From assembly GCA_032139905.1 (NCBI GenBank), contig JAQJDB010000007.1:1054001-1118000 (forward strand): a stretch of 64,000 nt of DNA. The letters run 5' to 3'. The notes beneath the pieces were generated by a model, which was given only the letters and a program-made list of their open reading frames with translations, was not told where the DNA came from and ran no database searches. Both the position numbers and the translations under genes were made by a program. Every line of letters begins with the position of its first letter. The stretch's first letter is position 1. Shown one piece after another: positions 6,092 to 20,497 of the stretch. Source of the stretch: Nitrospira sp. MA-1. Its GTDB lineage: Bacteria > Nitrospirota > Nitrospiria > Nitrospirales > UBA8639.

Positions 6092-6475
6092 TTAGAATTC
6101 ATCGATAGCCACAGGGTGCAGGAGGTCGCGAACTGACACGATCCCGACAATGTCCTCCCGGTGAGTGACGGCCAGGTGCCGGGTGCCGGATCGATCCATC
6201 AAGTCTGCCGCTTCGAAAATCGGTGCGTCTTGATCAATGGTGATCACGGGAGCCGTCATAATAGTTTCGACGGTGGTTTGGTCTGGCGACCGACGGGTCG
6301 AGACCACTTTCCGGACAATATCAGCTTCAGTGACGATGCCCACAATATGCCCCTGTTGTTCGACAAACACGCAACCGATGCGGCGAATCCGCATTAGGGT
6401 AGCTGCTAGGGACACGAGGTCTCCGCAATTCACTGAGGCAAGATCCTGTTTCATGAGTTCTTCGACTCGAATCAT
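6092..6475 (-). CDS. CBS-domain pair protein (first copy)
   Basis: The 127-residue protein consists almost entirely of two CBS motifs, about residues 8-60 and 70-125 (IGCVFVEQQGHIVGIVTEAD and RHLAVTHREDIVGIVSVRDL). CBS pairs bind adenine nucleotides and act as energy or ionic sensors. A stand-alone pair usually controls a partner by contact. A strong Shine-Dalgarno (aaggag) precedes the start. It is a clear paralogue of the CBS protein at 7518-7901, and the two flank a PsiE-like membrane protein, which suggests that the three proteins work together. Confidence 0.85.
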   Translation of the reverse strand: MIRVEELMKQDLASVNCGDLVSLAATLMRIRRIGCVFVEQQGHIVGIVTEADIVRKVVSTRRSPDQTTVETIMTAPVITIDQDAPIFEAADLMDRSGTRHLAVTHREDIVGIVSVRDLLHPVAIDEF

Positions 6476-6985
6476 AGTTGGGCTCCTTTTGTTAGTGAAT
6501 TATAGATTGAGAGTTCCGAATCCTCTCGTCCTGGTTGAAGTCGGCGTCTAAGCCACAAGCGAAAATTTTCCTTTCGGGCCTTTCCCATGCAAAATCGGAT
6601 AGCAGTGGCGTGGGCGCCGGGAGAGATGGAGAAGAGTATGAATACCGTAAATGAGTGGCTGAAGGAGTATGAGTACTCCCACTATCATGATCATGAATTT
6701 CATTGTGTGTCTCCTGCTGGACTGGTTGTGTCATCGTTTCTTGATGCTCTGAGTAGCATGACATGGTGGTGTTACCATGGGGTTTCCGAATCGTTAGCTG
6801 TTCGTAACATTTCATGATGTTGTGGTGAACTGGTGCAATTGGATCTTAGGAATTCAGGGGGGGGAACCCGTCACATTTTCCGTTTCTTTAAAAAATATTT
6901 CAGGGATGTGGCCGATTGAAAAGTGATGAGTCAAATTTTCAATCCGCCGGGAAGTGTTGGGAATTGCCCTCCAACTCGATCGAGG
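6476..6985. other. 510-bp gap; no gene supported
   Basis: Open frames on both strands here lack a ribosome-binding site, biased composition or family features. The part next to 6475 must hold the promoter of the CBS gene, but I see no clear -35/-10 pair or palindrome. Confidence 0.4.
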
Positions 6986-7528
6986 TTAGTGAGATTTTTG
7001 AGCTTGAGGCCATTCCTGGGTATTTTCGCCTCGCGTCGGAGACCATTGGACGGCCACGACCCGGATGATGGCCAATACCACTAATATTCCACCCAAGATC
7101 ATCCACTGTTCCAGATGGGCTTCCGAAAACCATTTCGAGATAATTTCGGTAAGCATGACCACGAGAATCGTATCGACAATAAACGTGACCTTCACCCGCC
7201 CTTCGGAAAAATAGGTCACGGTTGTTTTGAAGACCTCCACGATGGCCAGTATGATCAACGTGTCCACGATGAGTTGACGAAAGACCTGTTCGAGGGGTTC
7301 TGTGAAAAGAGCTTCTAAATTCAAGAAAATCCTCAAGACGCCTCCAGCGAGTCCTACGAGGATGGTGACAATTAATAAGCTCAGGACGGCTTTGATACCT
7401 TTCATCCAGAAATGGGTCAGGTCGGCCTCTAACGCTTTGGCCAGCCAGGCGGATGACTGTTGAAAGGAGCTGTTGAACATGGAGGAATCGTTCGACTGCA
7501 TCGTGGCTTTCATGGTTTTATAATTCAT
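6986..7528 (-). CDS. PsiE-like phosphate-starvation-inducible membrane protein
   Basis: About 180 residues with four hydrophobic segments (near 45-65, 80-105, 118-140 and 145-165 from the first ATG). The central FKTTVTYFSEGRVKVTFIVD stretch fits the PsiE family, whose E. coli founder is induced by phosphate starvation and has no established biochemical role. The ATG at 7528 overlaps the end of the upstream CBS gene by 11 bases; ATGs at 7513 and 7501 are alternatives. The overlap implies co-transcription and probably translational coupling with the CBS gene at 7518-7901. The Pho-like half-sites in front of that gene fit the PsiE assignment. Confidence 0.75.
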   Translation of the reverse strand: MNYKTMKATMQSNDSSMFNSSFQQSSAWLAKALEADLTHFWMKGIKAVLSLLIVTILVGLAGGVLRIFLNLEALFTEPLEQVFRQLIVDTLIILAIVEVFKTTVTYFSEGRVKVTFIVDTILVVMLTEIISKWFSEAHLEQWMILGGILVVLAIIRVVAVQWSPTRGENTQEWPQAQKSH

Positions 7529-7901
7529 CCTTTGCAACAGGAGCTAATAAATCACGAACAGAAAGCATGCCGGACACATGGGACTCATTGCCTACCACCA
7601 AATGTCTCGTGTAAGCCGCCTTCATGATCCCGGCAGCCTCAGAAATCGACTCTGATTCATCAATGGAGACAATGGGACTACTCATGATATTTCCGACTTG
7701 GATATACTCTGAAGGGAAATGAAATGCCACGACCTTTCTCACGATATCGCTTTCCGTCACAATTCCCACTAACTCTTCTCCGTGTTTCACTAACAGGCTG
7801 CCAATTTTGCGAATTCGCATCAGGTTGGCCGCGATTGATACCGCTTGGGTGAACTCAACACAGGCCAGTTCTCTGGTCATTAACTGTTCAACTCGTACCA
7901 T
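7518..7901 (-). CDS. CBS-domain pair protein (second copy)
   Basis: The 127-residue protein has two CBS motifs (IGSLLVKHGEELVGIVTESD and TRHLVVGNESHVSGMLSVRD) and ends LLAPVAKDEL, against LLHPVAIDEF in the first copy. It has a strong ribosome-binding site (aaaggagag) 5 bases before the ATG at 7901. It overlaps the PsiE-like gene and is divergently oriented to the lipoprotein gene at 8087, sharing a control region that contains Pho-like half-sites. A regulatory role for the PsiE-like protein or for phosphate uptake through adenine-nucleotide sensing is an inference. Confidence 0.85.
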   Translation of the reverse strand: MVRVEQLMTRELACVEFTQAVSIAANLMRIRKIGSLLVKHGEELVGIVTESDIVRKVVAFHFPSEYIQVGNIMSSPIVSIDESESISEAAGIMKAAYTRHLVVGNESHVSGMLSVRDLLAPVAKDEL

Positions 7902-7963
7902 ATTTCTCTCCTTTGTTAATATGAAGGTTCATGATGGAATGTACTGGATTGGTATTAAACCTA

Positions 7964-7991
7964 CGTCGCAAGTATATGACGTACGTGTAAC
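7964..7991 (+). promoter_or_regulatory. Putative Pho box between CBS/psiE-like and lipoprotein genes
   Basis: The hexamers TATGAC (7975-7980) and TGTAAC (7986-7991) are in 11-bp phase, with a weaker CGTCGC one period upstream (7964). This resembles the fuller arrays before pstS, the porin and the third pstS in this window. The site lies 73 bp from the CBS start and 95 bp from the lipoprotein start, so it could serve both. The weakness of the outer half-site makes it the least certain of the four. Confidence 0.45.
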
Positions 7992-8086
7992 ATTTTTTCT
8001 CCTCCACTCCTTTTGTGGTGGACGTCTAGGGTAGAATGACTCGGAAAAGCAGGGGTATGATCATGGTTGATGGGAGGAATATCTGT

Positions 8087-8919: not shown

Positions 8920-9609
8920 TCATAACAGTTCGCTGATTTTGGGACGGGGGCCTTGCAAAGGAAGACCGGTGACCATTAAATATATTTCTTCAGCAATGTC
9001 GGTCACATGATCGCCGGCGCGTTCCAACCCTTTGGCGATAAATAATAATTGAGTCCCGTCACCGATGTTCCTGGATTCCTGGCTCATCATGCGGAGCAGG
9101 TGCTCAAACAGGTTGGCATAGACGGTGTCCAATTCGGCGTCATCCGTCCAAGCAACATTGGCCAACGGGGCATTATGGTGAATATAGGACTCCGTGACCT
9201 GGGACAACATGGATTGGATGCGTTTCCCCATCCATAGAAATTCTTCAGCAAATTCGGCAGAGATGGGCCGTGCCAAATGCCGGCTGCGTTTGGCGGTATT
9301 TTTTGCGTAATCACCGATCCGTTCCAAATGAATCGCGATGCGAGAAGCCGCCAGAATAGCTCGCAGGTCGTCCGCCATCGCCTGTTGACGGGCAAGAGTG
9401 CGGGTCGTATGGGTATTGATTTTTTCTTGCAGGGCATCTGCAATACGGTCGTTGGCAATAACCTGCTCCGCCAAGTCGGCATTGTTCTCCACCAAGGCGG
9501 TCAGCGCACGGTGCAGTTGCTCCGACACGTGATTTGAGAGAGCCACAATCTCCTGTCGAAGGGTGTTCAAATCTTCGTCAAAAATTCGTAGGGTGTGTTG
9601 ATTGTTCAT
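8920..9609 (-). CDS. phoU: Phosphate transport regulator PhoU
   Basis: The 229-residue all-helical protein has the duplicated PhoU three-helix repeat. Repeat one is about residues 12-105 (LNTLRQEIVALSNHVSEQL, LERIGDYAKNTAKR) and repeat two about 115-220 (LLFIAKGLERAGDHVTDIAE). The two E-R-x-G/A-D-[HY] motifs are the metal-binding signature. PhoU connects the PstSCAB transporter to the PhoR sensor kinase and keeps the Pho regulon off when phosphate is plentiful. It is the last gene of the pstS-pstC-pstA-pstB-phoU operon, 32 bp after pstB. A clear aaagga ribosome-binding site precedes the ATG. Confidence 0.95.
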   Translation of the reverse strand: MNNQHTLRIFDEDLNTLRQEIVALSNHVSEQLHRALTALVENNADLAEQVIANDRIADALQEKINTHTTRTLARQQAMADDLRAILAASRIAIHLERIGDYAKNTAKRSRHLARPISAEFAEEFLWMGKRIQSMLSQVTESYIHHNAPLANVAWTDDAELDTVYANLFEHLLRMMSQESRNIGDGTQLLFIAKGLERAGDHVTDIAEEIYLMVTGLPLQGPRPKISELL

Positions 9610-9641
9610 GATGATCCTTTCGAAATCGGTGTTCCGCCGGT

Positions 9642-10475
9642 TTATCCAAACCGGCCGGTGATATAATCCCGCGTCAGCGTTTCTTGCGGCGTGGTAAACA
9701 GTTCTCCTGTTGGAGCGAATTCAATGAGTTTGCCCAGATGCATGTAGGCGGTAAAGTCCGAAATCCGGGCCGCCTGCTGCATGTTGTGGGTGACAATGAT
9801 CACCGTGAACCGATGGCGAATTTCTGTAATCAGATCTTCAACTTTGGCGGTGGCAATGGGGTCCAATGCCGAGGTGGGTTCATCCAGTAAGAGGATTTCA
9901 GGTTGTGGGGCCAGGGCCCTGGCGATACATAATCGTTGCTGCTGTCCGCCTGAGAGGCCGTAGGCCGATTGTGAAAGGCGATCCTTCACTTCCTCCCACA
10001 AGGCCGCATCCCGCAAGGCCTGTTCCACACGGTCGCTCAACAGTTTTTTGTTCTGAACGCCCTGAATCCGAAGGCCGGCCGCTACATTTTCAAAGATGGA
10101 TTTGGGAAAAGGATTGGGTTTTTGGAACACCATCCCGATTCGAAGTCTGACCATGAAGGGATCAAGGTCGATGAGGTTGTGGTTTTCAGGGAAAAGACGA
10201 ATCTCTCCGCTATACCGATTTCCGGGATACAGATCATGCATACGATTAAACGATCGAAGGAGGGTGCTTTTCCCGCATCCGGATGGTCCGATCAACGCGG
10301 TGACTTTCCGATTGGCAATTGACAAGGTGATTTCCTTCAAGGCTTGGGTTTCACCATACCAAAAACTGAGTTTCCGAACTTCCGCCGCCAGCGATTCCCG
10401 TTCGGTGTTGGTTGTGGGGGAGGCGTTGAGCGACATGAGTGTGACTTGCTGGTCATGAGAAATTTTCTGTGTCAT
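9642..10475 (-). CDS. pstB: Phosphate ABC transporter ATPase PstB
   Basis: The 277-residue ATPase energises phosphate import at the inner membrane. Walker A is GPSGCGKST (63-71), the Q-loop is in [11 protein letters not shown], the ABC signature LSGGQQQR is at 174-181, Walker [12 protein letters not shown] is at 195-205, and the switch His is in [10 protein letters not shown]. The [17 protein letters not shown] sequence is diagnostic for PstB. The roughly 30-residue N-terminal extension is longer than usual; an internal Met at 14 is a possible start, but aaggaa lies 8 bases before the first ATG. It follows pstA after 62 bp. Confidence 0.95.
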
Positions 10476-10537
10476 ATGCGTGGTTCCTTGGTTCGGCTAA
10501 GAGGGCATCCAATATTCATCTGGGACATCATGGATGG

Positions 10538-11476
10538 CTAACGAACCTGGCGTCGTAAATGAAAGCGCAACCAGATCGCCACTCCATTCATCGCCAGCGT
10601 CATCAGCATCAGAATGACTCCGGCCGCCGCGGCATTAATATGGAATTCTGCCTGGGGTCGTGAGACCCAATTGAACATCTGAATAGGCATGATGGTAAAT
10701 GGGCTTTCGAGCCATTCAAAATTGATAAAAGGCGGGCTGGCCTGAAAAGGGGGGGCGGGTAAAAAGGCGATAAAGGTTAAGGCCCCGATGGTGATGACCG
10801 GTGCGGCTTCTCCTATCGCTCGAGCCAAACCCACGATGGTTCCGGTCAAAATGCCAGCCCGCGCAGCGGGCAGCACGTACAGGCGAACGGTCTGCCACTT
10901 GTCAGCACCCAACCCATATGCGGCTTCCCGCAAATCAAGGGGAATTCCACGAATGGCTTCACGGGTGGATACAATAATTACCGGCAAAATCAGTAATGCG
11001 AGTACCAGGCCAGCCGTGAGGATCGTCTCTCCGAGCCCGAACCCATGGATGAACAGACCAAGCGCTAACAACCCGTAGATAATGGAAGGCACTCCGGCTA
11101 GATTGCTGACGTTGATTTCAATGAAATCCGTGATCCAGTTGCGCGCAGCATATTCCTCCAAGTACACCCCTGCTCCAACCCCCAGCGGTATCGCAATGCA
11201 GGCAGTGACGAGCATGACCAGGATTGTGCCGACCCAAGCGGAAAGGATCCCTGCTTGAAGAGGATGGCGCGAGGGGAAGTTGAGATAAAAATCGGGGTTC
11301 ATGAGTCTGGGCCATCCGCCCACGATCAGGTCGATGACCACTGCCGCCAATAAGCTCATGGCGACGATCAGTACCGAAATGCCGATGCCCGCCATGACCA
11401 GATCTGTTCGACGGTTGGCACTAACAATGCGGGCCAAGTCAGGAGTAAACGTTTGGGACACGTCGGCTTTAATCAT
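10538..11476 (-). CDS. pstA: Phosphate ABC transporter permease PstA
   Basis: The 312-residue inner-membrane permease has six membrane segments and the type-1 ABC permease coupling loop (EAAYGLGADKWQTV, ending GLARAIGEAAP). With PstC it forms the channel. The ATG overlaps the TAA of pstC by one base (TAATG), and a perfect aaggaggt lies inside the end of pstC, so translation is coupled. The IPLGVGAGVYLEEYA segment is the usual PstA signature. It is complete, unlike the second pstA in the window. Confidence 0.95.
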   Translation of the reverse strand: MIKADVSQTFTPDLARIVSANRRTDLVMAGIGISVLIVAMSLLAAVVIDLIVGGWPRLMNPDFYLNFPSRHPLQAGILSAWVGTILVMLVTACIAIPLGVGAGVYLEEYAARNWITDFIEINVSNLAGVPSIIYGLLALGLFIHGFGLGETILTAGLVLALLILPVIIVSTREAIRGIPLDLREAAYGLGADKWQTVRLYVLPAARAGILTGTIVGLARAIGEAAPVITIGALTFIAFLPAPPFQASPPFINFEWLESPFTIMPIQMFNWVSRPQAEFHINAAAAGVILMLMTLAMNGVAIWLRFHLRRQVR

Positions 11477-12429
11477 TAGTACACCTCCTTAAAGCGCCGC
11501 CGGAGATAGAAACCGATCAAATTGAAGGTGAGCGTGATGACAAACAACACGATTCCAGCCGCAAACACGGATTGGTAGGCAATGGAGTCATGAGGCAAAT
11601 CTCCCATGGCCATTTGTACGATATAGGCCGTGATCGTTGCTGCTCCTTCCGTGGGATTGAAAGAAAAATTGGGGTTTTGGCCGGCAGCGATGGCGACGAC
11701 CATCGTTTCGCCCACGGCTCGTGACATGCCCAGAATGAATGCGGCGGTGATGCCGGAAAATGCGGCAGGGACCACGACCCGCATGGCAACCCGGAAGCGG
11801 GAGTATCCCAAGGCGTATCCCGCTTCCCGCAGACCAGGGGGGACTGCCCGCATGGCATCTTCGCTGACCGAGGCTGTGTAGGGAAGAATCATGATTCCCA
11901 TGACGATGCCGGGACCGAGCATGTTAAACCCTTCCAAGCCGGGGATGAAGGTTTGCAGAAGCGGGGTGAAAAAGAGAAGGGTGAAATATCCGTAGACCAC
12001 TGTCGGCACCCCTTCGAGCAACTCAAGAAAGGGTTTGACCGTCTCGCGAACCTCCCTTCGAGCATATTCGCTGAGGTAAATAGCCAAGGCCAGTCCCGCC
12101 GGAATAGAGACGGCTAGCGCAATCCCTGCTACGGTAACCGTCGCCGAGACCAGAGTCATCACCCCGAAGCGGGCATTCTCAAAAACGGGAGTCCATTGGG
12201 TGTCTGTCAGAAAGTCCAGGAGAGATATCTGGGCAAAGAACCCCATGGACTCCGTGACCAGGACATACACGATTCCTAACGTGACAAACACGGAAGTCGC
12301 GGCTGCGACCAAAAGGCACCCCCCGGCTAAAGAGCCCCATAAGGCACGGCGGCGGAGGAACCCTTTGCTGGCGCGTAAGGGAGATCCTGAAGAGGCAGAG
12401 AGGCTTGAGGAAGGTGGTAACGTTGGCAT
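11476..12429 (-). CDS. pstC: Phosphate ABC transporter permease PstC
   Basis: The 317-residue permease has a first membrane helix near residues 32-55, a periplasmic loop (FLTDTQWTPVFEN, typical of PstC), five more helices, and the coupling loop EAGYALGYSRFRVAMRVVVP followed by GMSRAVGETMVV. It pairs with PstA in the membrane. A tggag ribosome-binding site precedes the ATG. It lies 83 bp after pstS, and a stable hairpin fills that gap, which would allow more PstS than permease to be made. Confidence 0.95.
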   Translation of the reverse strand: MPTLPPSSSLSASSGSPLRASKGFLRRRALWGSLAGGCLLVAAATSVFVTLGIVYVLVTESMGFFAQISLLDFLTDTQWTPVFENARFGVMTLVSATVTVAGIALAVSIPAGLALAIYLSEYARREVRETVKPFLELLEGVPTVVYGYFTLLFFTPLLQTFIPGLEGFNMLGPGIVMGIMILPYTASVSEDAMRAVPPGLREAGYALGYSRFRVAMRVVVPAAFSGITAAFILGMSRAVGETMVVAIAAGQNPNFSFNPTEGAATITAYIVQMAMGDLPHDSIAYQSVFAAGIVLFVITLTFNLIGFYLRRRFKEVY

Positions 12430-12512: not shown

Positions 12513-13511
12513 CTACTGAGGAACCCTGGCCAGCAGGTCTTCGATTCCGACGCCGACTTCAGCCCCATGGAAAACCGTCCCCGTGAGTCGTTTGGTAAAC
12601 TTGTCCAGAGCCATCGTGTAGGCTTTTGAGGGCAACGGCACGTATCCGACTTCCCTCACGAGCGTTTGGGCATGGTCGTTGTTCAAATAAAACTCGATGA
12701 ATCGTTTGACGTGTGGTTTTTTGTCGGCGGCATCCTTATTGACGTAAATAAAAATGGGACGCGATAGGGGTTGGTACGTGGCATTTTTGGCATTATCCAC
12801 AGAAGGGCCCACGGGTTTCCCGCCTTTCCATGAAATCGGTACGGCTTTTAATTTTCCCTTATTTTCCTCGTAATAGGCCAAGCCGAAAAATCCCATGGCA
12901 TTAATGTCATTGCTGACTCCTTGAACCAGGACGTTGTCATCCTCACTAGCGGTAAAATCCCCGCGAGAACTTTTTCCCTCCACAATGGCCTCAACAAAAT
13001 AATCGTAGGTCCCGGAATCAGTCCCAGCCCCGAACAGTTTCAAGGGTCGATCCGGGAAGCTGCTTCGAATTTGATTCCAATTCGTCACTTTGTCCTGGGC
13101 TCCAGGTTCCCAGGCGGTTTTCAATTCCTCCACGGTCAAATGATCCGCCCAGTCGTTTTTAGGATTTACGACGACTGTTAAGGCGTCCAAGGCGATTGGT
13201 AACTCGATATAGCCGATGTTGTGTTCTTTGCACGATTTAATTTCTGACTCCTTTATCGGACGGGAAGCGTCGGCGATATCCGTTTCACCTCGACAGAATT
13301 TTTTAAAGCCGCCGCCTGTGCCGGAAATGCCTACTGTCACCATTGTTTTCCCTCGTTCGGCTTTTTGAAATTCTTCAGCCATCGCCTCGGTAATCGGAAA
13401 GACCGTGCTTGAGCCGTCAATTTTGACCAACTCGCGGGCGGACACGGTGGAAATCGACGCGGTGATGGTCAGAGCGAAGGTCGCCATAACAAGGTGGATT
13501 GGGATTTTCAT
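12513..13511 (-). CDS. pstS: Periplasmic phosphate-binding protein PstS
   Basis: The 332-residue protein captures phosphate in the periplasm for PstCAB. Residues 1-25 are a signal peptide cleaved after ISTVSA. The binding motifs are [39 protein letters not shown] and [12 protein letters not shown], where backbone amides and Ser/Thr/Asp contact the anion. The family is the longer PstS type, common outside enterobacteria. The ATG at 13511 is chosen because a strong ggagg lies 7 bases before it and a signal peptide starts there. Upstream in-frame codons would add a Pro/Phe-rich stretch that spoils the signal. A four-half-site Pho array lies 95 bp upstream. Confidence 0.95.
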
Positions 13512-13605
13512 GCGAAACCTCCGTATGATTAAGTGTGAGAATGGTAATTGGAGTAGTATGAAATAATTTCTTGAAAGATGAATCATCCGACTATCTCAGG
13601 ATAAG

Positions 13606-13644
13606 ATGACACGTCTATGACATTCTCATTACCATCAGGTTAAA
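13606..13644 (-). promoter_or_regulatory. Pho box array upstream of pstS (four half-sites, 11-bp period)
   Basis: On the minus strand, reading toward pstS, the hexamers TTTAAC, GGTAAT, TGTCAT and TGTCAT start exactly 11 bases apart. The last two match the canonical PhoB direct repeat (TGTCAT). PhoB binds head-to-tail on one DNA face with this period, so two dimers could bind. The neighbouring gene makes the reading strong; protection or binding has not been shown. Confidence 0.8.
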
Positions 13645-13762: not shown

Positions 13763-13802
13763 GAACAGGCCTCTTCGGATGACAGCCGATAGAGGCCTGT
13801 TC
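13763..13802 (-). terminator. Strong hairpin after the porin gene
   Basis: The 12-bp arms GAACAGGCCTCT and AGAGGCCTGTTC enclose a loop that itself pairs tcgg with ccga. It lies 37 bp past the porin stop and before the pstS control region, so it probably ends porin transcription. There is no clear T-run, so it may need Rho or act mainly as a 3' stabiliser. Confidence 0.65.
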
Positions 13803-13838: not shown

Positions 13839-15212
13839 TTAGAATGACACATCCCATTGCAAACGGACCCGCTGTTCATGCTGATTTTGCCCTGCGGGTT
13901 GGGACAGCGTGAGCCAGGACCCATCGAGAGTAATTTTGTTTTTATGTCCTGCGAAAAACCAGTTGATGGCAGTGGTGTATTCCTGCCGTCGATCATTTGG
14001 GGTTGAGACGTTGGGGTCGACAAATGCATAACGAAAGGCGACCTCCAGGGGTTTGGGGACTGCCGGAATGAGACCATGGGGGAAATAACCGATTTGTGAG
14101 TAACTTCCCATCATGTTGGTCTTATGGCCCGGCGCACCCTCTGGATAGCTGTTGTCCTTAACCTCTTTCCAATGGTATTCATGTTGAATCGATAGCCCCC
14201 GCCATTTGAACGCGAATTCCTCCACCATGCCCTGCACCCGGTATTGTCCGGCTTTCGCGTTGGAGTCCGAGGTGTAGGGTACCCCGGCCGAATTGTCTTC
14301 CGGCAATGTTCCGCAACCACTCGAGGACCATCTGGTGCATTTGCCGACAGTGGTATAGGCCCCGAAGGCCACGCTTCCCGTGGGCTGCTCGTGAAACTCC
14401 ACGTCGCTTTGTGACCATTTCAGATCGCGTCCGAGGAAATTCCATTGATACCGTCCGAAGTACATCATGTTGGCGTCGTCGTTGGCTTCTCCCCGACCGG
14501 ATCCTGTAAAGACACCGGCATAATATCGTGAGTCAAAGGCCGTACCAGGGGCCACATGGCCATACAGCATGGCCCCAACCTGGCGGTCGATGGTAAAGAT
14601 TTCATTGACGATTGATCGTTCCACGAACTGCTGGGTGCCGGAAGAGTCTCTTCGTTCGCGGTTATAGTCGACTTTCCATTGTCCAAGTTGCAGAGAAAGA
14701 AACTTGAACTTTTCCAGACTGATCCGCCAGTCGATTAATCTAGTCGATCCAGGTGACCCGCCGGAATTGGAAGTGGATTGCAGATCTAACTCGAAATAGT
14801 ACTTGATCCAGGGTTGATAGCCATGACCACCGATTTTCATTCGAACGCGGCGAAGTTCAAGGGTACTCTCGGGACCCGCATTGAAATCAGCGGCGGATAT
14901 CGGATCTCCGCTTGTGGGATACGTATAGCGCCCTTGGAACCGCCACTGAATTTGTGTCGCAAATTTTCCATCGATTGTTGAGAATTCAAAGCCTTTCGAT
15001 CCCCAGCCGACTTTGACTGGAAATTGAGCATCAAGCGCTTTTTGTTGTTCCACCGCTTTTTTCTCTTCTGCCGCCTCAATTCTGATCCAATCTTCTTTGG
15101 TGAGCACCTTCTTCTCACGCAAGACATCGATCAGTTCATCACTCGCCCAGGCACTTGTCTGCAACACGATGCCCAGGCAGACGAGTCCCGTTAGTAATGT
15201 AAAAACCTTCAT
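13839..15212 (-). CDS. OprO/OprP-type phosphate/polyphosphate porin
   Basis: The 457-residue outer-membrane protein has a signal peptide (1-23, ending SAWA). A short helical linker with EEKKAVEQQKALDAQ, possibly a coiled coil that aids trimer assembly, precedes a 16-strand-type beta-barrel (FATQIQWRFQGRYTYPTSGD, LRRVRMKIGGHGYQPWIKYY) that ends with the aromatic VRLQWDVSF. This fits Porin_O_P, whose Pseudomonas members select phosphate (OprP) or polyphosphate (OprO). Placement directly before the pst operon and behind its own Pho array supports an anion role. The Arg/Lys ladder that sets selectivity cannot be judged by eye. A gggagg ribosome-binding site precedes the ATG. Confidence 0.85.
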   Translation of the reverse strand: MKVFTLLTGLVCLGIVLQTSAWASDELIDVLREKKVLTKEDWIRIEAAEEKKAVEQQKALDAQFPVKVGWGSKGFEFSTIDGKFATQIQWRFQGRYTYPTSGDPISAADFNAGPESTLELRRVRMKIGGHGYQPWIKYYFELDLQSTSNSGGSPGSTRLIDWRISLEKFKFLSLQLGQWKVDYNRERRDSSGTQQFVERSIVNEIFTIDRQVGAMLYGHVAPGTAFDSRYYAGVFTGSGRGEANDDANMMYFGRYQWNFLGRDLKWSQSDVEFHEQPTGSVAFGAYTTVGKCTRWSSSGCGTLPEDNSAGVPYTSDSNAKAGQYRVQGMVEEFAFKWRGLSIQHEYHWKEVKDNSYPEGAPGHKTNMMGSYSQIGYFPHGLIPAVPKPLEVAFRYAFVDPNVSTPNDRRQEYTTAINWFFAGHKNKITLDGSWLTLSQPAGQNQHEQRVRLQWDVSF

Positions 15213-15299: not shown

Positions 15300-15338
15300 A
15301 TTACGATTCTGTTAACAGAAGGTCAAACCGATGTAAAA
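15300..15338 (-). promoter_or_regulatory. Pho box array upstream of the porin (four half-sites)
   Basis: On the minus strand the hexamers TTTTAC, TTTGAC, GTTAAC and CGTAAT begin 11 bases apart (15338, 15327, 15316 and 15305). They share the A[C/T] ending and spacing of the pstS array, though none is a perfect TGTCAT. The array is 88 bp before the porin ATG. Phasing in four copies makes chance unlikely, but the half-site is loose. Confidence 0.65.
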
Positions 15339-15369: not shown

Positions 15370-16239
15370 CTAACCGCGAATTCCGGAAATGTAGGCGGCG
15401 GTTAATTCCTCTTTTGGGGATTCAAATATCTGCTGAGCGGAACCATGTTCAACCAATTGTCCGATTCCTTCCAATGACCAGAAAACGGCCACATGATCGG
15501 CTAATCGGCGGGCTTGGGCTAGGTTATGTGTGACGATGAGAATGGTGTACGAACCCTGCAAGCTGGCAATTAAATCTTCGATGATTCCGCTTGAGATTGG
15601 ATCTAAGGCACTGCAGGGCTCATCAAGCAGAAGGACATCCGGTCTTAATACGAGTGCTCTTGCGAGGCAGAGCCTTTGTTGTTGTCCTCCTGAGAGGGCT
15701 TGAGCGGGATGGTCGAGCCGGTCTTTGACTTCATGCCAGAGACCAACTTGCTGCAGGACGTTTTCAATGGCCGATTGCAATAGTGTGCGGTCATGCGTTC
15801 CGTGTTCACGGAGAGGGAGTTCCAGATTTTTACGGATGGAAAAAGGAAAAACGGTGGGTTTTTGGAAAATCATTCCCACGTTACGGCGCAATTGAAGGAG
15901 ATCGGTTGTAGGGGCAAGGATATCCAATTCATTCATCTGCAGGTGCCCCGAGACCTGGCATCCGGGAATCAAATCCGTCAAGCGGTTCAGGCTCATAAGA
16001 AAACTTGTTTTTCCGCAACCTGACGGCCCCACTAATGCGGTAATACACCCCCGATTAATTTCAAGTGTGACATTCCGAAGTACCTGAAGATGGTGATAGG
16101 CGATCGAAAGGTTGTTCGCGCGAATATGAGCGTCAGGCTCACAGCAGGGTTCGGTGGATTGATAGGGGAGCCATGCTCTGAACCCGGCCCGTTTGTCGGG
16201 ATCAGGAATTATGTGGGAAGTTGGTTGGATAAGGTCCAT
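15370..16239 (-). CDS. pstB: Second phosphate ABC transporter ATPase (PstB paralogue)
   Basis: The 289-residue ATPase has Walker A GPSGCGKTS near 83-91, GMIFQKPTVFPFSI, signature [15 protein letters not shown], Walker B LLLDEPCSALD and the switch THNLAQARR. The PstB-type SLNRLTDLIPG follows Walker A. It is clearly diverged from the first PstB and has a 45-residue N-terminal extension with a CC pair (EPCCEP). The start at 16239 overlaps the end of pstA by 31 bases. It is the last gene of the arsR-pstS-pstC-pstA-pstB set and no phoU accompanies it. Confidence 0.9.
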   Translation of the reverse strand: MDLIQPTSHIIPDPDKRAGFRAWLPYQSTEPCCEPDAHIRANNLSIAYHHLQVLRNVTLEINRGCITALVGPSGCGKTSFLMSLNRLTDLIPGCQVSGHLQMNELDILAPTTDLLQLRRNVGMIFQKPTVFPFSIRKNLELPLREHGTHDRTLLQSAIENVLQQVGLWHEVKDRLDHPAQALSGGQQQRLCLARALVLRPDVLLLDEPCSALDPISSGIIEDLIASLQGSYTILIVTHNLAQARRLADHVAVFWSLEGIGQLVEHGSAQQIFESPKEELTAAYISGIRG

Positions 16240-17062
16240 CGTGAAGCAATCCAGGAAGAAGAAAGGTTAATTATGAACAAGAGGCTCACCAGGACAAGAG
16301 CCGTGGCATAGGCATGGGGGTTCCCCCCGGCCACATTCATGGATAGATCATAAATGTGCACCGCGAGCGATCGTCCTGAATCCATTAAAGACTCCGGCAT
16401 TCGGTCCACGTACCCACTGGTAAAAATTAAGCCGCAGTTTCGGCTATTGCCCGTCCCAGCCCAAGGATGCCGCCGACCAACAGTCCGGGGATGGCCGCCG
16501 GGAGGAGAATCGTTCGAATGGTGGTCGACTTTGAAAGGCCAAGGGCTGCTGCGGATAATCGCTGTTCACGCGAAATAACCCGAAAACTTTCTTCCACCGT
16601 GCGAATCAGGATAGGTAACACCATGCAGGCCAATGTGAGACCTCCCGACAGAATGGAAAATCCGAATCCCAGGACTTGGCAAAACAGGGCATTGCCAAAC
16701 AGGCCAAAGACAATGGAGGGCACACCTGCGAGGACATCCAGTGACCCACGAATGAGTCGGCCAAGCGCATGATCGTGACGGGTGTATTCCGAAAGAAACA
16801 ATGCTGTTCCCAACCCCATAGGCACGGCCACTCCCATGCATACTCCGACGAGTAAGAAAGTGGATATGAGGATGGGGCCGATTCCGCCCTCCCGCCCGGC
16901 ATTCAGGGGAGCAGAGAACACGAAGTTGAATGACAGGTGGTTCCACCCGTTCCAGAGTAAATCACCCATTAACCAGATAAACGGAATGGAGACCATGGTG
17001 GCCGCCGTCCATATGATCACGGTGAGGCAGTATTCCTGGACGTGGTTACTTTGTCGCGACAT
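16209..17062 (-). pseudogene. pstA: Second PstA permease, interrupted by a frameshift
   Basis: From the ATG at 17062 the frame encodes a good PstA up to GRAIAETAA and then meets TAA at 16427-16429. Re-reading one base back (-1) at that point gives LIFTSGYVDRMPESLMDSG and the last membrane helix, to the stop at 16209-16211. The two parts join exactly where the family continues after the G-R-A-I-x-E-T-A coupling motif. A single missing base in a t-rich run (gcttaattttt, minus strand) explains it. No classical slippery heptamer is present. It is either a true loss of function, a sequencing error, or unorthodox recoding. The upstream part begins inside the last codons of pstC, as in an intact operon, so decay is recent if real. 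Confidence 0.8.
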
Positions 17063-17933
17063 AGGTGTTCCGATGGCGTAAGCCCTCTGCCATGCTGACA
17101 AATAGCACAACGACTCCCATGAGGAAGAGTCCACTCAAGAACAATGCCGCCCGATGATCGCCCAACGCATACCCCATTTCCAGGGCAATGTTGGCGGTCA
17201 GGGTTCTGACCGGATCAAACAGACGGGAAGGAGTTTGTACGACGTTTCCACAGACCATTAGAACGGCCATGGTTTCTCCGAGGGCACGTGCCAATCCCAA
17301 TAGGATGCCGGTAAAAATGCCAACCTTGGTTGTGGGAAGAATCACATGCCAAATCATCGACCATCGACTGAATCCTAAGGCGGAGGCGCTATGGATATAG
17401 GCGAGGGGAACATGAGCAATGCTGGTATGGGCCACTAACATGATGGTGGGCATGATCATAAACGCCAGGATGAGAATGCCGGCAAGCAGGCTTGGGCCGG
17501 GAGGATGCCAGCGGCCGATCATCGGAACCAGAACCACGAGACCCCAAAAGCCGAAGACGACCGAAGGAATCCCGGCCAGGAGTTCGACCATGCGGCGGAA
17601 CCATCGGCTAAGAAGAGGGGGCGCATAAAAATGACAGAAAAGCGCTGAGAGAATTGCGAGCGGGGAGGCAAGAAGAACGGCACCGGTGGACGCGAAGATG
17701 GTTCCCCAGACCATAGAAGTCAGGCGATACGAGTTATCGGTAGGATACCAGTCAGGATCGCTGAAAAACCGTGTGAGCCCAATATGGTGAAGGGCGGGCC
17801 AGGATTCATGAAAGAGAAATGCGATGACCAGAAGCAAGAGTCCTCCTGCCGTCAACGTAAGACATCTCACACTCCCTGAGAGCAGATCATCATTCTTGGA
17901 GTGGGGCGAAATATTGTTGGAGGATGAGATCAT
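17046..17933 (-). CDS. pstC: Second PstC permease
   Basis: About 295 residues with six membrane segments. PstC features are FFSDPDWYPTDNSYRLTSMV after helix 1, LAGIPSVVFGFWGLVVLVP, and the coupling loop SASALGFSRWSMIWHVILP with GLARALGETMAV. The ATG at 17933 (MISSSNNISPH) is preferred; a TTG at 18002 would extend it by 23 residues deep into pstS. Even so it overlaps the end of pstS by 44 bases, unusually long, so translation is probably coupled. It needs the frameshifted PstA as partner, unless it borrows the PstA of the first operon. Confidence 0.9.
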   Translation of the reverse strand: MISSSNNISPHSKNDDLLSGSVRCLTLTAGGLLLLVIAFLFHESWPALHHIGLTRFFSDPDWYPTDNSYRLTSMVWGTIFASTGAVLLASPLAILSALFCHFYAPPLLSRWFRRMVELLAGIPSVVFGFWGLVVLVPMIGRWHPPGPSLLAGILILAFMIMPTIMLVAHTSIAHVPLAYIHSASALGFSRWSMIWHVILPTTKVGIFTGILLGLARALGETMAVLMVCGNVVQTPSRLFDPVRTLTANIALEMGYALGDHRAALFLSGLFLMGVVVLFVSMAEGLRHRNTYVATK

Positions 17934-18732
17934 GGTTTTGAGATGACTGCGCGAAATCAATAAAGGTTTTAATGAGTCCTGCGGGAGGAGAATTTGTGAC
18001 AAGGGTTAGTGGACGAGAGAGAGGAAACGTGCCTTTCCTGACTGTCTCGATCGTGGCCGGAATGTGTTGCAGCGGTAACAATCGGATGGGTATGCCATGG
18101 GTCGCATCATACTGGGCCGTGCCAATGGAGACATATCCGATAGCGTGAGGGTTGCCGGCTACTGTCTTAATGCCTTGTTCGTTATCCCCAATCACGACAT
18201 GGGCGTGGATATCCCGATTCTTGAGATTGAAATACTGAAGAAACAGTTCGAGTGTCGAGCGCCCTTCGGCTTTATTGACGACCAATGTAGGTGCCTCATT
18301 TCCGCCGGCTGTTTTCCAATTTGTGATTGTTCCGGTGTACATGTCTCTGATCTGAGCATCCGTCAAAAACTTTACGGGATTATCACGGTGTAGGATGATG
18401 GTAATGCCGTCATGGGCAATGATGGATCCAAATAGATGAGCTTCCTGAGGTTTCAGAGTCCGGGAGGCCATGCCGATATCCGCCAGGCCGGTCACTGCGT
18501 CTGCAATGCCGCGAGAGGAGCCTCCGGTTTGAACGTCTACCCGATTACCCGGATGGAGGGTCTCAAAGCGTTTGCCGATTTCGGATACCAACGGAGCCAT
18601 GGTGCTGGAGCCGGAGATGATCAGTCTTGTGTCTTCTGCCCGGGCGATTGGATATTCCCACGGCGGGAATGTCCATAAAAAATGGCTAATCAGGATAACT
18701 TTTAGTACGAAAAAAAAAGACGAAAAAACCAT
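17890..18732 (-). CDS. pstS: Second PstS-type phosphate-binding protein
   Basis: About 280 residues with an N-terminal hydrophobic signal (to about residue 32, ending ARA), then LIISGSSTMAPLVSEIGKRF, VQTGGSSRGIADAVTGLADI and NKAEGRSTLELFLQYF. The motifs are those of the shorter PstS subfamily, clearly different from the first PstS. The ATG at 18732 is chosen over a TTG three codons upstream. It is 32 bp after arsR in the same direction and overlaps pstC. Selectivity between phosphate and arsenate cannot be read from sequence, but the arsR linkage raises that question. Confidence 0.88.
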   Translation of the reverse strand: MVFSSFFFVLKVILISHFLWTFPPWEYPIARAEDTRLIISGSSTMAPLVSEIGKRFETLHPGNRVDVQTGGSSRGIADAVTGLADIGMASRTLKPQEAHLFGSIIAHDGITIILHRDNPVKFLTDAQIRDMYTGTITNWKTAGGNEAPTLVVNKAEGRSTLELFLQYFNLKNRDIHAHVVIGDNEQGIKTVAGNPHAIGYVSIGTAQYDATHGIPIRLLPLQHIPATIETVRKGTFPLSRPLTLVTNSPPAGLIKTFIDFAQSSQNHDLILQQYFAPLQE

Positions 18733-18772
18733 AAGGTGCAACAGGATTTTTGAAAGGGTAAAGAACGACGCG

Positions 18773-19072
18773 TTAATCGAAGGAAATTTTGCAGCACCCC
18801 AGATTGATGGCCTTGCCCGCCGTAGAATCTGCGACGCTTTCCGGTAATTGGTAAATCATGGTTTTCCCTTCCCGAGAGGATTCCACTAAGCCTGCGTCGC
18901 GAAGGATGGCCAAATGGTGGGACAATAAACTCTGTTCAACCTCCAACTCACCCATGAGTTCTCCGACATTTTTCGGCCCTGACATGAGTGATTCAAGCAC
19001 GCCGAGGCGGGTTGGGTCCGATAACACTTTCAATTTTTCCGCACAAGCGGGGGATGTAATCTTTGTTTTCAT
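18773..19072 (-). CDS. ArsR/SmtB family transcriptional repressor
   Basis: The 99-residue winged-helix protein has LKVLSDPTRLGVLESLMSG, the recognition helix region EVEQSLLSHHLAILRDAGLV and the wing SREGKTMIYQL. Cys residues lie at about 10 (SPAC) and near the C-terminus (GCC), which could form a metal or metalloid site; the classic ArsR ELCVCDL motif in helix 3 is absent. It is the first gene of the second pst set. ArsR-family proteins normally repress their own operon and release DNA on ligand binding. A perfect 12-bp palindrome 52 bp upstream is a candidate operator. The ligand is unknown; arsenite, another metal or redox are all possible. Confidence 0.88.
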   Translation of the reverse strand: MKTKITSPACAEKLKVLSDPTRLGVLESLMSGPKNVGELMGELEVEQSLLSHHLAILRDAGLVESSREGKTMIYQLPESVADSTAGKAINLGCCKISFD

Positions 19073-19289: not shown

Positions 19290-19328
19290 GTTAACGTATT
19301 TGTAACATGCGAGACATAATACCGACAC
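19290..19328 (+). promoter_or_regulatory. Pho box array upstream of the third pstS (four half-sites)
   Basis: The hexamers GTTAAC, TGTAAC, AGACAT and CGACAC start at 19290, 19301, 19312 and 19323, exactly 11 bases apart. This matches the layout before pstS and the porin. It is 128 bp before the third pstS gene and could also act on the divergent arsR operon. Confidence 0.65.
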
Positions 19329-19456: not shown

Positions 19457-20497
19457 ATGAAATTGATAAGACTCAAGGTCCTTAAATCCAGTGTTTTGTT
19501 GGGCGTAATGTTGGTTGGGACACCTGTTATGGGAGAACACGATCTGTTTCCCCCTATCGATCAACAGATTCCTCATTACGCTTCACAAAGTGACGTATCA
19601 GGGAAGATCAACATAGTGGGCTCCAATACCATGGACCCAATTCTGAAGAAATGGAAAGACCAGTTGGGAAAAGTTCAACCTCATTTGGTCATTACCCTGG
19701 ACACGGAGGGTTCCAAAGTCGGATTTGAGTCGTTAATGAGTGGGAAAACCCACATGGCGGCCATGTCCCGTCCGCTGAAAAATGAGGAAATCGAGCTATT
19801 CACCAAACGGCTAGGGTACGCACCTACTACGGTACCCGTTGCCGTGGATGCATTTGCCGTCTTTGTGCATAAGGATAACCCGCTCGACCAAATCACCTTT
19901 CAACAATTAGATGCGGTGTTTTCCTCCGAAAGGCGACGAGGGGCTCAGGAGTCTCTGGACCATTGGGGCCAATTGGGCCTTTCCGGCAGCTGGAAACAAG
20001 CGCCTATCCTTGCGCAAATTCGGGATTCCAATTCAGGAACCGGACAGTTTTTCAGAGAATTAGTCTTGATGGGCGGAAAAGATAAAGAGTCGGTTGCGGT
20101 TCAACCAGGCGCCGCGTCGGTTGTCCATGCCGTTATGAATGATCCTTATGCCATAGGGTATAGTGGAATCGGCTATCGCACCGATTCCGTCAAACCCCTG
20201 CGTGTGGCTACCGAGGAAGGGAAGTCTTTTGTCGAGCCGACATTTGAATCCGCGAGCAATGGATCCTATCCACTTCGTCGGGTGCTCTATCTGTATGTGA
20301 ATCATTCCCCACAAGCACAGGATTCTCCTCTCCTGTCGGAGATTATCAAGTTTGCGGTAAGTCAGGAAGGCCAACAGGTTGTTGCCAAATCAGGCTTTTT
20401 CCCGTTACCCACCAAAGATTTGGTTGCCTTGTACGCCGACTGGTCTGAGCCGGTTACTTCCGCAGCCACCAATGGGAACCCCAAGGAAATCCGATAA
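19457..20497 (+). CDS. PstS-like substrate-binding protein (third copy, orphan)
   Basis: The 346-residue periplasmic protein has a signal peptide (1-26, ending VMG) and phosphate-binding-type motifs INIVGSNTMDPILKKW, LDTEGSKVGFESLMSGKTHM and IRDSNSGTGQFFREL. It ends with PBP-like FAVSQEGQQVVAKSGFFPL. The pattern is that of the PstS/SphX group, but with SNTMDP in place of SSTV, so the ligand may be phosphate or another oxyanion. No permease or ATPase gene adjoins. It has its own phased Pho-like array. It could feed one of the two Pst permeases or serve as a sensor or scavenger. Confidence 0.85.
   Translation: MKLIRLKVLKSSVLLGVMLVGTPVMGEHDLFPPIDQQIPHYASQSDVSGKINIVGSNTMDPILKKWKDQLGKVQPHLVITLDTEGSKVGFESLMSGKTHMAAMSRPLKNEEIELFTKRLGYAPTTVPVAVDAFAVFVHKDNPLDQITFQQLDAVFSSERRRGAQESLDHWGQLGLSGSWKQAPILAQIRDSNSGTGQFFRELVLMGGKDKESVAVQPGAASVVHAVMNDPYAIGYSGIGYRTDSVKPLRVATEEGKSFVEPTFESASNGSYPLRRVLYLYVNHSPQAQDSPLLSEIIKFAVSQEGQQVVAKSGFFPLPTKDLVALYADWSEPVTSAATNGNPKEIR

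Follow-up and report, generated by a model that had tools for sequence, protein, structure and literature searches.

In Bacillus subtilis, the core binding region of PhoP contains four TTAACA-like repeats approximately 11 bp apart, just upstream of the -10. The PHO box is described as two direct repeats of 11 nt (PMC4415409) and, in the account of Escherichia coli given in PMC1906773, 10 bp separate the repeats from a downstream -10 of the form TAN3T/A. Structural models, as summarised in PMC10294691, back a strict spacing between the box and the core promoter, and KdpE is described as likewise using direct 6-bp repeats (PMC3264566). A literature search, which covered few subscription journals, found no Pho-box site model for Nitrospira or Nitrospirae. 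The DNA analysed here, referred to as the window, is a stretch of 64,000 nt of Nitrospira sp. MA-1 (C7:1054001-1118000, in a genome of 4.76 Mb), and contains before pstS a four-unit array which, judged by its sequence and conservation, is a genuine conserved Pho-type site.

Four half-sites upstream of pstS

The array is located in the 327-bp intergenic region between pstS and a porin gene, and its end is 95 nt before pstS, which starts at 13511. This part of the window shows the following features:

8920..12429, minus strand: pstC, pstA, pstB and phoU, downstream of pstS (TIGR02138, TIGR00974, TIGR00972 and TIGR02135, all above cut-offs)
12513..13511, minus strand: pstS, first gene of the operon (TIGR02136, 312.1 bits, cut-off 206.6)
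13590..13595, minus strand: putative -10 hexamer GATAGT, with TG one base upstream, exactly 10 nt after half-site 4
13606..13611, minus strand: Pho half-site 4 (proximal), TGTCAT; GGTCAT, TGTCAC, TGTCAT and TGTCAT in the four same-genus orthologues
13617..13622, minus strand: Pho half-site 3, TGTCAT; TGTCAT, TGTCAT, TGCCAT and TACCAT in the four same-genus orthologues
13628..13633, minus strand: Pho half-site 2, GGTAAT; GGTAAC, AGTAAC, AGTAAC and GTTAAC in the four same-genus orthologues
13639..13644, minus strand: Pho half-site 1 (distal), TTTAAC; TTTAAC, ATTAAC, TTTAAC and AGTTAC in the four same-genus orthologues
13839-15212, same direction as pstS and upstream of it: phosphate-selective porin gene (PF07396)

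On the minus strand the hexamers start at 13644, 13633, 13622 and 13611, and this confirms the exact 11-bp phase before pstS that the first-pass annotation had proposed. The same annotation described the inner pair as canonical and the outer pair as degenerate, and here it has to be corrected: the two TGTCAT units form the promoter-proximal pair and TTTAAC and GGTAAT the distal one, and the TTAAC/GTAAC units taken as degenerate are the best conserved of the group (27 arrays), TGTCAT being the atypical, E. coli-like form. The canonical E. coli-type pattern, in which all units approximate TGTCA(T/C), is restricted to the proximal pair. GATAGT, which the first-pass annotation did not list, shares four of six letters with TATAAT, with A2 and T6 present and a G at position 1, so it is not of the TANNNT form. 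A sigma-70 scan of the pstS strand showed no two-hexamer promoter, which is expected if a regulator replaces the -35. The porin-pstS interval also contains, at 13764-13801, a perfect 11-bp inverted repeat (AACAGGCCTCT / AGAGGCCTGTT) without a clear T run, which is possibly the terminator of the porin gene; a similar sequence is present in the same-genus orthologues.

Orthologues of this pstS were found in four genomes of the same genus (88-92% identity) and in four of another family of the order (60-62%). Upstream of all eight, the four units spaced at 11 bp, the 10-nt gap and a -10-like hexamer are kept while the letters vary, and in the four same-genus orthologues this hexamer shows A2 and T6. 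Conservation upstream of pstS orthologues, which had been set as the refutation test of the array, was found in 4/4 regions of the same genus and 4/4 of the other family. A half-site matrix was trained only on these eight arrays from other genomes, which had first been chosen by eye, and it scores the pstS array at 24.9, the top array of the window.

Genes encoding a PhoB-like and a PhoR-like protein adjoin pstS, pstC, pstA, pstB and phoU genes from C7:1019548 onward, approximately 47 kb from the array, the PhoB-like protein being encoded at C7:1019548-1020225. The PhoB-like protein reaches 266.5 bits on TIGR02154, which is its best model and whose cut-off (296.2) it does not reach, and none of the 59 genomes has a protein passing this cut-off; because of this score, the label PhoB is taken from the gene neighbourhood and the best model. 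The PhoR-like protein is also below cut-offs, with 370.7 against 400 for PnpS and 306.1 against 334.2 for phoR_proteo. The array is very probably a PhoB-type activator site of a phosphate-starvation promoter, most likely read by this PhoB-like protein. Under phosphate shortage, a phosphorylated regulator of the OmpR/PhoB type, most likely the protein encoded approximately 47 kb away, would bind the four direct repeats head to tail, as two pairs, and the lower pair would touch RNA polymerase at the usual location of the -35. Since the last unit ends 10 nt before the -10, at the -35 location, the regulator would take over -35 recognition and would recruit the sigma-70 RNA polymerase for transcription of pstSCAB-phoU. 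We infer that binding by the PhoB-like protein, dependence on phosphorylation, activation and the order of loading would follow this scheme. The first-pass annotation predicts that such control would be strong and cooperative.

Origin of the operon and of the TGTCAT pair

By the pstS of this operon, Nitrospira sp. HKST-UBA08 and two Nitrospirales drafts are the nearest relatives with a name, and five of the 20 genomes of the genus, the MA-1 genome included, carry this pstS at 88% identity or above. PstS shows 72-77% identity to the six nearest gammaproteobacterial loci, three of which are metagenome draft genomes, as against 60-62% to the other Nitrospirales family, and PstC shows 76-83% identity to Gammaproteobacteria as against 59-62% to that family; many of the relatives are incomplete. 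PstS trees were built from nine Nitrospirales proteins together with 48 (main tree) or 27 (constraint test) of 80 named loci; L109-L111 were omitted because they share contigs with L007, L008 and L010, other loci were removed for thinning, and L185 has one internal stop, read as X. In the tree, which is unrooted and drawn with a midpoint root, the PstS of the window and the four same-genus proteins join Vibrionaceae and a Methylococcaceae draft (99/85), and next other gammaproteobacteria (100/98 and 98/91). Constraining the nine Nitrospirales PstS together was rejected (p-AU 5.6e-8), this group having been named after the tree was seen. Given the grouping of PstS with Gammaproteobacteria, the pst operon was probably acquired by horizontal transfer.

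Acquisition of the operon may explain the TGTCAT letters, and it is possible that the promoter was transferred together with the operon. A tentative account, to which we give slightly less than even credence, is that a gammaproteobacterial pst operon was transferred with its promoter, that TGTCAT is a relic of it, and that the distal pair drifted or was selected to the TTAAC form preferred by the recipient's own regulator. The placement of PstS in the tree, the rejected constraint and the PstS and PstC identities agree with this account, as do the limited carriage of window-type pstS in the genus and the exact sequence TGTCAT-N5-TGTCAT, which occurs at a single site of the 4.76-Mb genome, the pstS array (none for the reversed control). 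However, a four-unit array is clearly better than other spacings in only two of the six nearest gammaproteobacterial loci (L112 and L118), the letters are not exclusive to the pst operon, as TGTCAC and TGTCAT units are also present at L107:13998 in the MA-1 genome, and the tree is unrooted, with a tested group chosen post hoc and draft and incomplete genomes among its members. A composite promoter, in which the proximal TGTCAT pair of the donor was kept, the distal pair was converted to the TTAAC of the host, and the rule of four units and -10 is that of the host, is a rather doubtful proposal. The descent of the TGTCAT letters from a gammaproteobacterial promoter refines the reading of the array as a PhoB-type activator site and does not contradict it. 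A case of an acquired transporter operon being fitted to the regulator of a new host may be visible here.

Site model of the order and a probable local phosphate regulon

The form of the site in the order was described from 27 aligned arrays of other genomes, which are related and were picked for having an array, so that they describe its form and not its frequency. L029 and L030 were dropped from the set, since they have no array, the register of L015, L019 and L032 was shifted by one unit from the top automatic hit, and L025 is counted among the 27 arrays and is absent from alignment A1. Units 1 to 4 carry 1.38, 1.34, 0.96 and 0.88 bits of information per position, and flanking hexamers in the same phase show 0.10-0.13 bits in the three upstream and 0.26 in the next downstream; in these 27 pstS-type promoters conservation is confined to the four half-sites and the TANNNT box. 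The fifth base of the hexamer is A in 26, 27, 27 and 27 of the 27 arrays (units 1 to 4), and the -10 hexamer has T1 in 22, A2 in 27 and T6 in 26. At a gap of 10, 21 of the 27 arrays show a full TANNNT; for none of twelve other gaps is the number above two. To judge from this alignment, the usual form in the group would be four units, strongest upstream, followed by 10 nt and TANNNT.

Profile R1 was built from 26 of the 27 arrays, none of them from the MA-1 genome, and core pst promoters weigh most heavily in it; of the 26 sites used for training, 25 are found again. In the MA-1 genome it scores the core pst promoter at 36.2 bits, a third pstS at 26.2 and the pstS site of the window at 20.6, with one further weak match (E 0.4). 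A search of the 59 genomes with R1 yields 80 matches at E <=0.1, spread over 43 genomes. For 60 of these, from 41 genomes, a pstS-like match follows within 600 bp downstream; among the 55 matches outside the training set, 35 have this location. There is no R1 match in 16 of the 59 genomes, and 20 of the 80 matches are not before a pstS-like match; for this placement 21 weak pstS-like rows were first omitted, and the counts were unchanged once they were added. In the 59 genomes the pattern KKTMAY, repeated four times with an 11-bp spacing, is matched exactly at three places, each 95-203 bp upstream of a pstS-like match. With up to two mismatches allowed it has 100 matches and its reversed control 46 (3 and 2, respectively, in the MA-1 genome), so a large part of these looser matches is chance and the three exact matches alone were used. 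The Nitrospira-type site model of the first-pass annotation stands insofar as four units at 11 bp are common in the order; the pstS promoter of the window is a poor template for it, because PstS groups with Gammaproteobacteria and because R1 scores this promoter the lowest of the three. For Nitrospirales, in which genetics is difficult, the result is a site model of the phosphate regulon tested by computation: four units spaced at 11 bp, the upstream pair being the strongest, followed by 10 nt and, in most cases, TANNNT. With it, phosphate genes of the order can be listed from sequence alone.

With the half-site matrix, the window shows four more arrays, each with a hexamer containing A2 and T6 exactly 10 nt further on:

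6771..6809, minus strand: TGTTAC, GCTAAC, GGAAAC, GGTAAC, 10 nt, CATGCT; upstream of a CBS-domain gene (6092-6475)
7954..7992, minus strand: TGTTAC, CGTCAT, TGCGAC, TTTAAT, 10 nt, TACATT; before a CBS-domain gene (7518-7901) and a PsiE-family gene (6986-7537)
15300..15338, minus strand: TTTTAC, TTTGAC, GTTAAC, CGTAAT, 10 nt, TAGTCT; before the phosphate-selective porin gene
19290..19328, plus strand: GTTAAC, TGTAAC, AGACAT, CGACAC, 10 nt, TAGGCT; before the third pstS-like gene (19457-20497)

The score of the porin array was reached in none of 5,000 local shuffles and none of 200 window shuffles, and the array is present in both relatives with covering DNA (L193 and L195). The array before the third pstS has 26.2 bits with R1 (E 4.4e-7 in the window) and is present before an 82%-identical gene in L193. 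None of 5,000 local shuffles reaches the score of the array at 7954..7992, which precedes genes for a CBS domain (PF00571) and the PsiE family (PF06146), a family whose name derives from phosphate starvation. Eight of 200 window shuffles hold some array scoring 18.3 or above, so the scores of the two CBS arrays are not rare by themselves; both arrays are present in both relatives with covering DNA (L194 and L196), and the array at 6771..6809, whose score was matched in shuffles, rests on this presence. R1 misses the porin and CBS arrays, giving partial overlaps of 6.1 bits (E 1) and 4.4 bits (E 3.6), owing to the dominance of core pst promoters in the profile, and the case for these arrays comes from the half-site matrix and from their recurrence in relatives.

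Several other features were observed around these arrays. Pho-type arrays stand before the genes of two CBS-domain proteins and of a PsiE-family membrane protein in the region 6092-7901, and the role of these CBS proteins in phosphate starvation is not obvious. The relative G016 shows a tandem pair of phosphate-selective porin copies (L193:5266-8509), with 91% and 84% identity to that of the window. A second pst gene set is located at 15370-19072, and its pstS is immediately preceded by a gene for an ArsR-family regulator (18773-19072); with the half-site matrix no four-unit Pho array was found upstream of this pstS (score -2.1), and the set may respond to arsenic and not to phosphate. Within it, the second pstA-like ORF (16427-17134) stops early and hydrophobic sequence runs on in another frame to the next gene (16240-16560), possibly by a frameshift or a sequencing error. 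Elsewhere in the MA-1 genome, an array TGTCAC/ATTTAC/TGTGAC/TGTCAT (L107:13998-14036) is just upstream of a nucleotidyltransferase-like gene with a weak GMP_PMI match.

The reading as a phosphate regulon is drawn also from the arrays before the porin, the CBS/PsiE cluster and the third pstS. It is improbable that the pstS array belongs to another OmpR-family regulator using direct repeats spaced at 11 bp: the genome contains at least 40 matches to TIGR02154 among regulators of the OmpR/PhoB type and the PhoB-like protein is under the curated PhoB cut-off, but what follows the arrays (pstS genes, a phosphate-selective porin gene, the PsiE-family cluster) is the content of a phosphate regulon.

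The PhoB-type activator site was also set against chance. Dinucleotide shuffles of the 327-bp intergenic region never reached 24.9 in 5,000 trials (maximum 19.9), nor did 200 shuffles of the whole window (maximum 21.1), and among spacings of 8 to 14 the window shows scores above 18.2 at spacing 11 only. A counter-check matrix was trained on the other 19 arrays, without the eight, and those 19 had been located with the first matrix; its best 11-bp array is the same site in 9/9 regions, that of the window included, and in all nine the score at spacing 11 exceeds those at nine other spacings, clearly in most regions but narrowly in L013 (12.4 against 12.1). The regions before 25 further pstS-type genes were also scored (21 in other genomes, four in the MA-1 genome): 17 of them score 17 or above at spacing 11 and none does so at any of nine other spacings; eight of the 25 stay below 17 at 11 bp, and with the half-site matrix the array is absent from L005, L029 and L030. 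TGTCAT-N5-TGTCAT with up to two mismatches occurs at 367 places against 92 for the reversed control, so loose pairs carry little information. A chance match in AT-rich intergenic DNA, for which the frequency of these loose pairs and the loose four-unit matches of the MA-1 genome could be cited, deserves almost no credence against the shuffles, the 11-bp phase kept in 8/8 orthologues and the spacing control.

Comparison with known systems

The site type itself is a textbook PHO box, an ordinary switch, typically with four units in this order of bacteria. A PHO box consists of 11-nt direct repeats around a core of approximately 7 conserved nt; the locus shows four units at exactly 11 bp, conserved upstream of phosphate-uptake genes, and the fixed 10-bp distance to a -10 of TAN3T type is found in 21 of the 27 arrays, the GATAGT of the window being without T1. 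The Bacillus subtilis PhoP region differs from it in the letters of the proximal pair, and a porin is among the targets here. The PhoP box of Streptomyces shares the direct repeat units of 11 nt, but GTTCACC is given as its most conserved motif (PMC4415409). With the PHO box of E. coli, as described in PMC4415409 and PMC1906773, the array shares the 11-nt direct repeats, the TGTCAT letters (here in the proximal pair) and the 10 bp to the -10, and it differs in that sets of four units recur in the group, the distal units are of the TTAAC/GTAAC type and the regulator is below the PhoB equivalog cut-off. The cyanobacterial SphR box, in the description of PMC1906773, consists of tandem 8-bp CTTAACCT repeats with 3-bp linkers, which gives the same 11-bp period, and the distal unit of the window, which reads TTTAACCT, is likened to CTTAACCT; at least three units are reported for that box, whereas the array before pstS has four, with a proximal TGTCAT pair.
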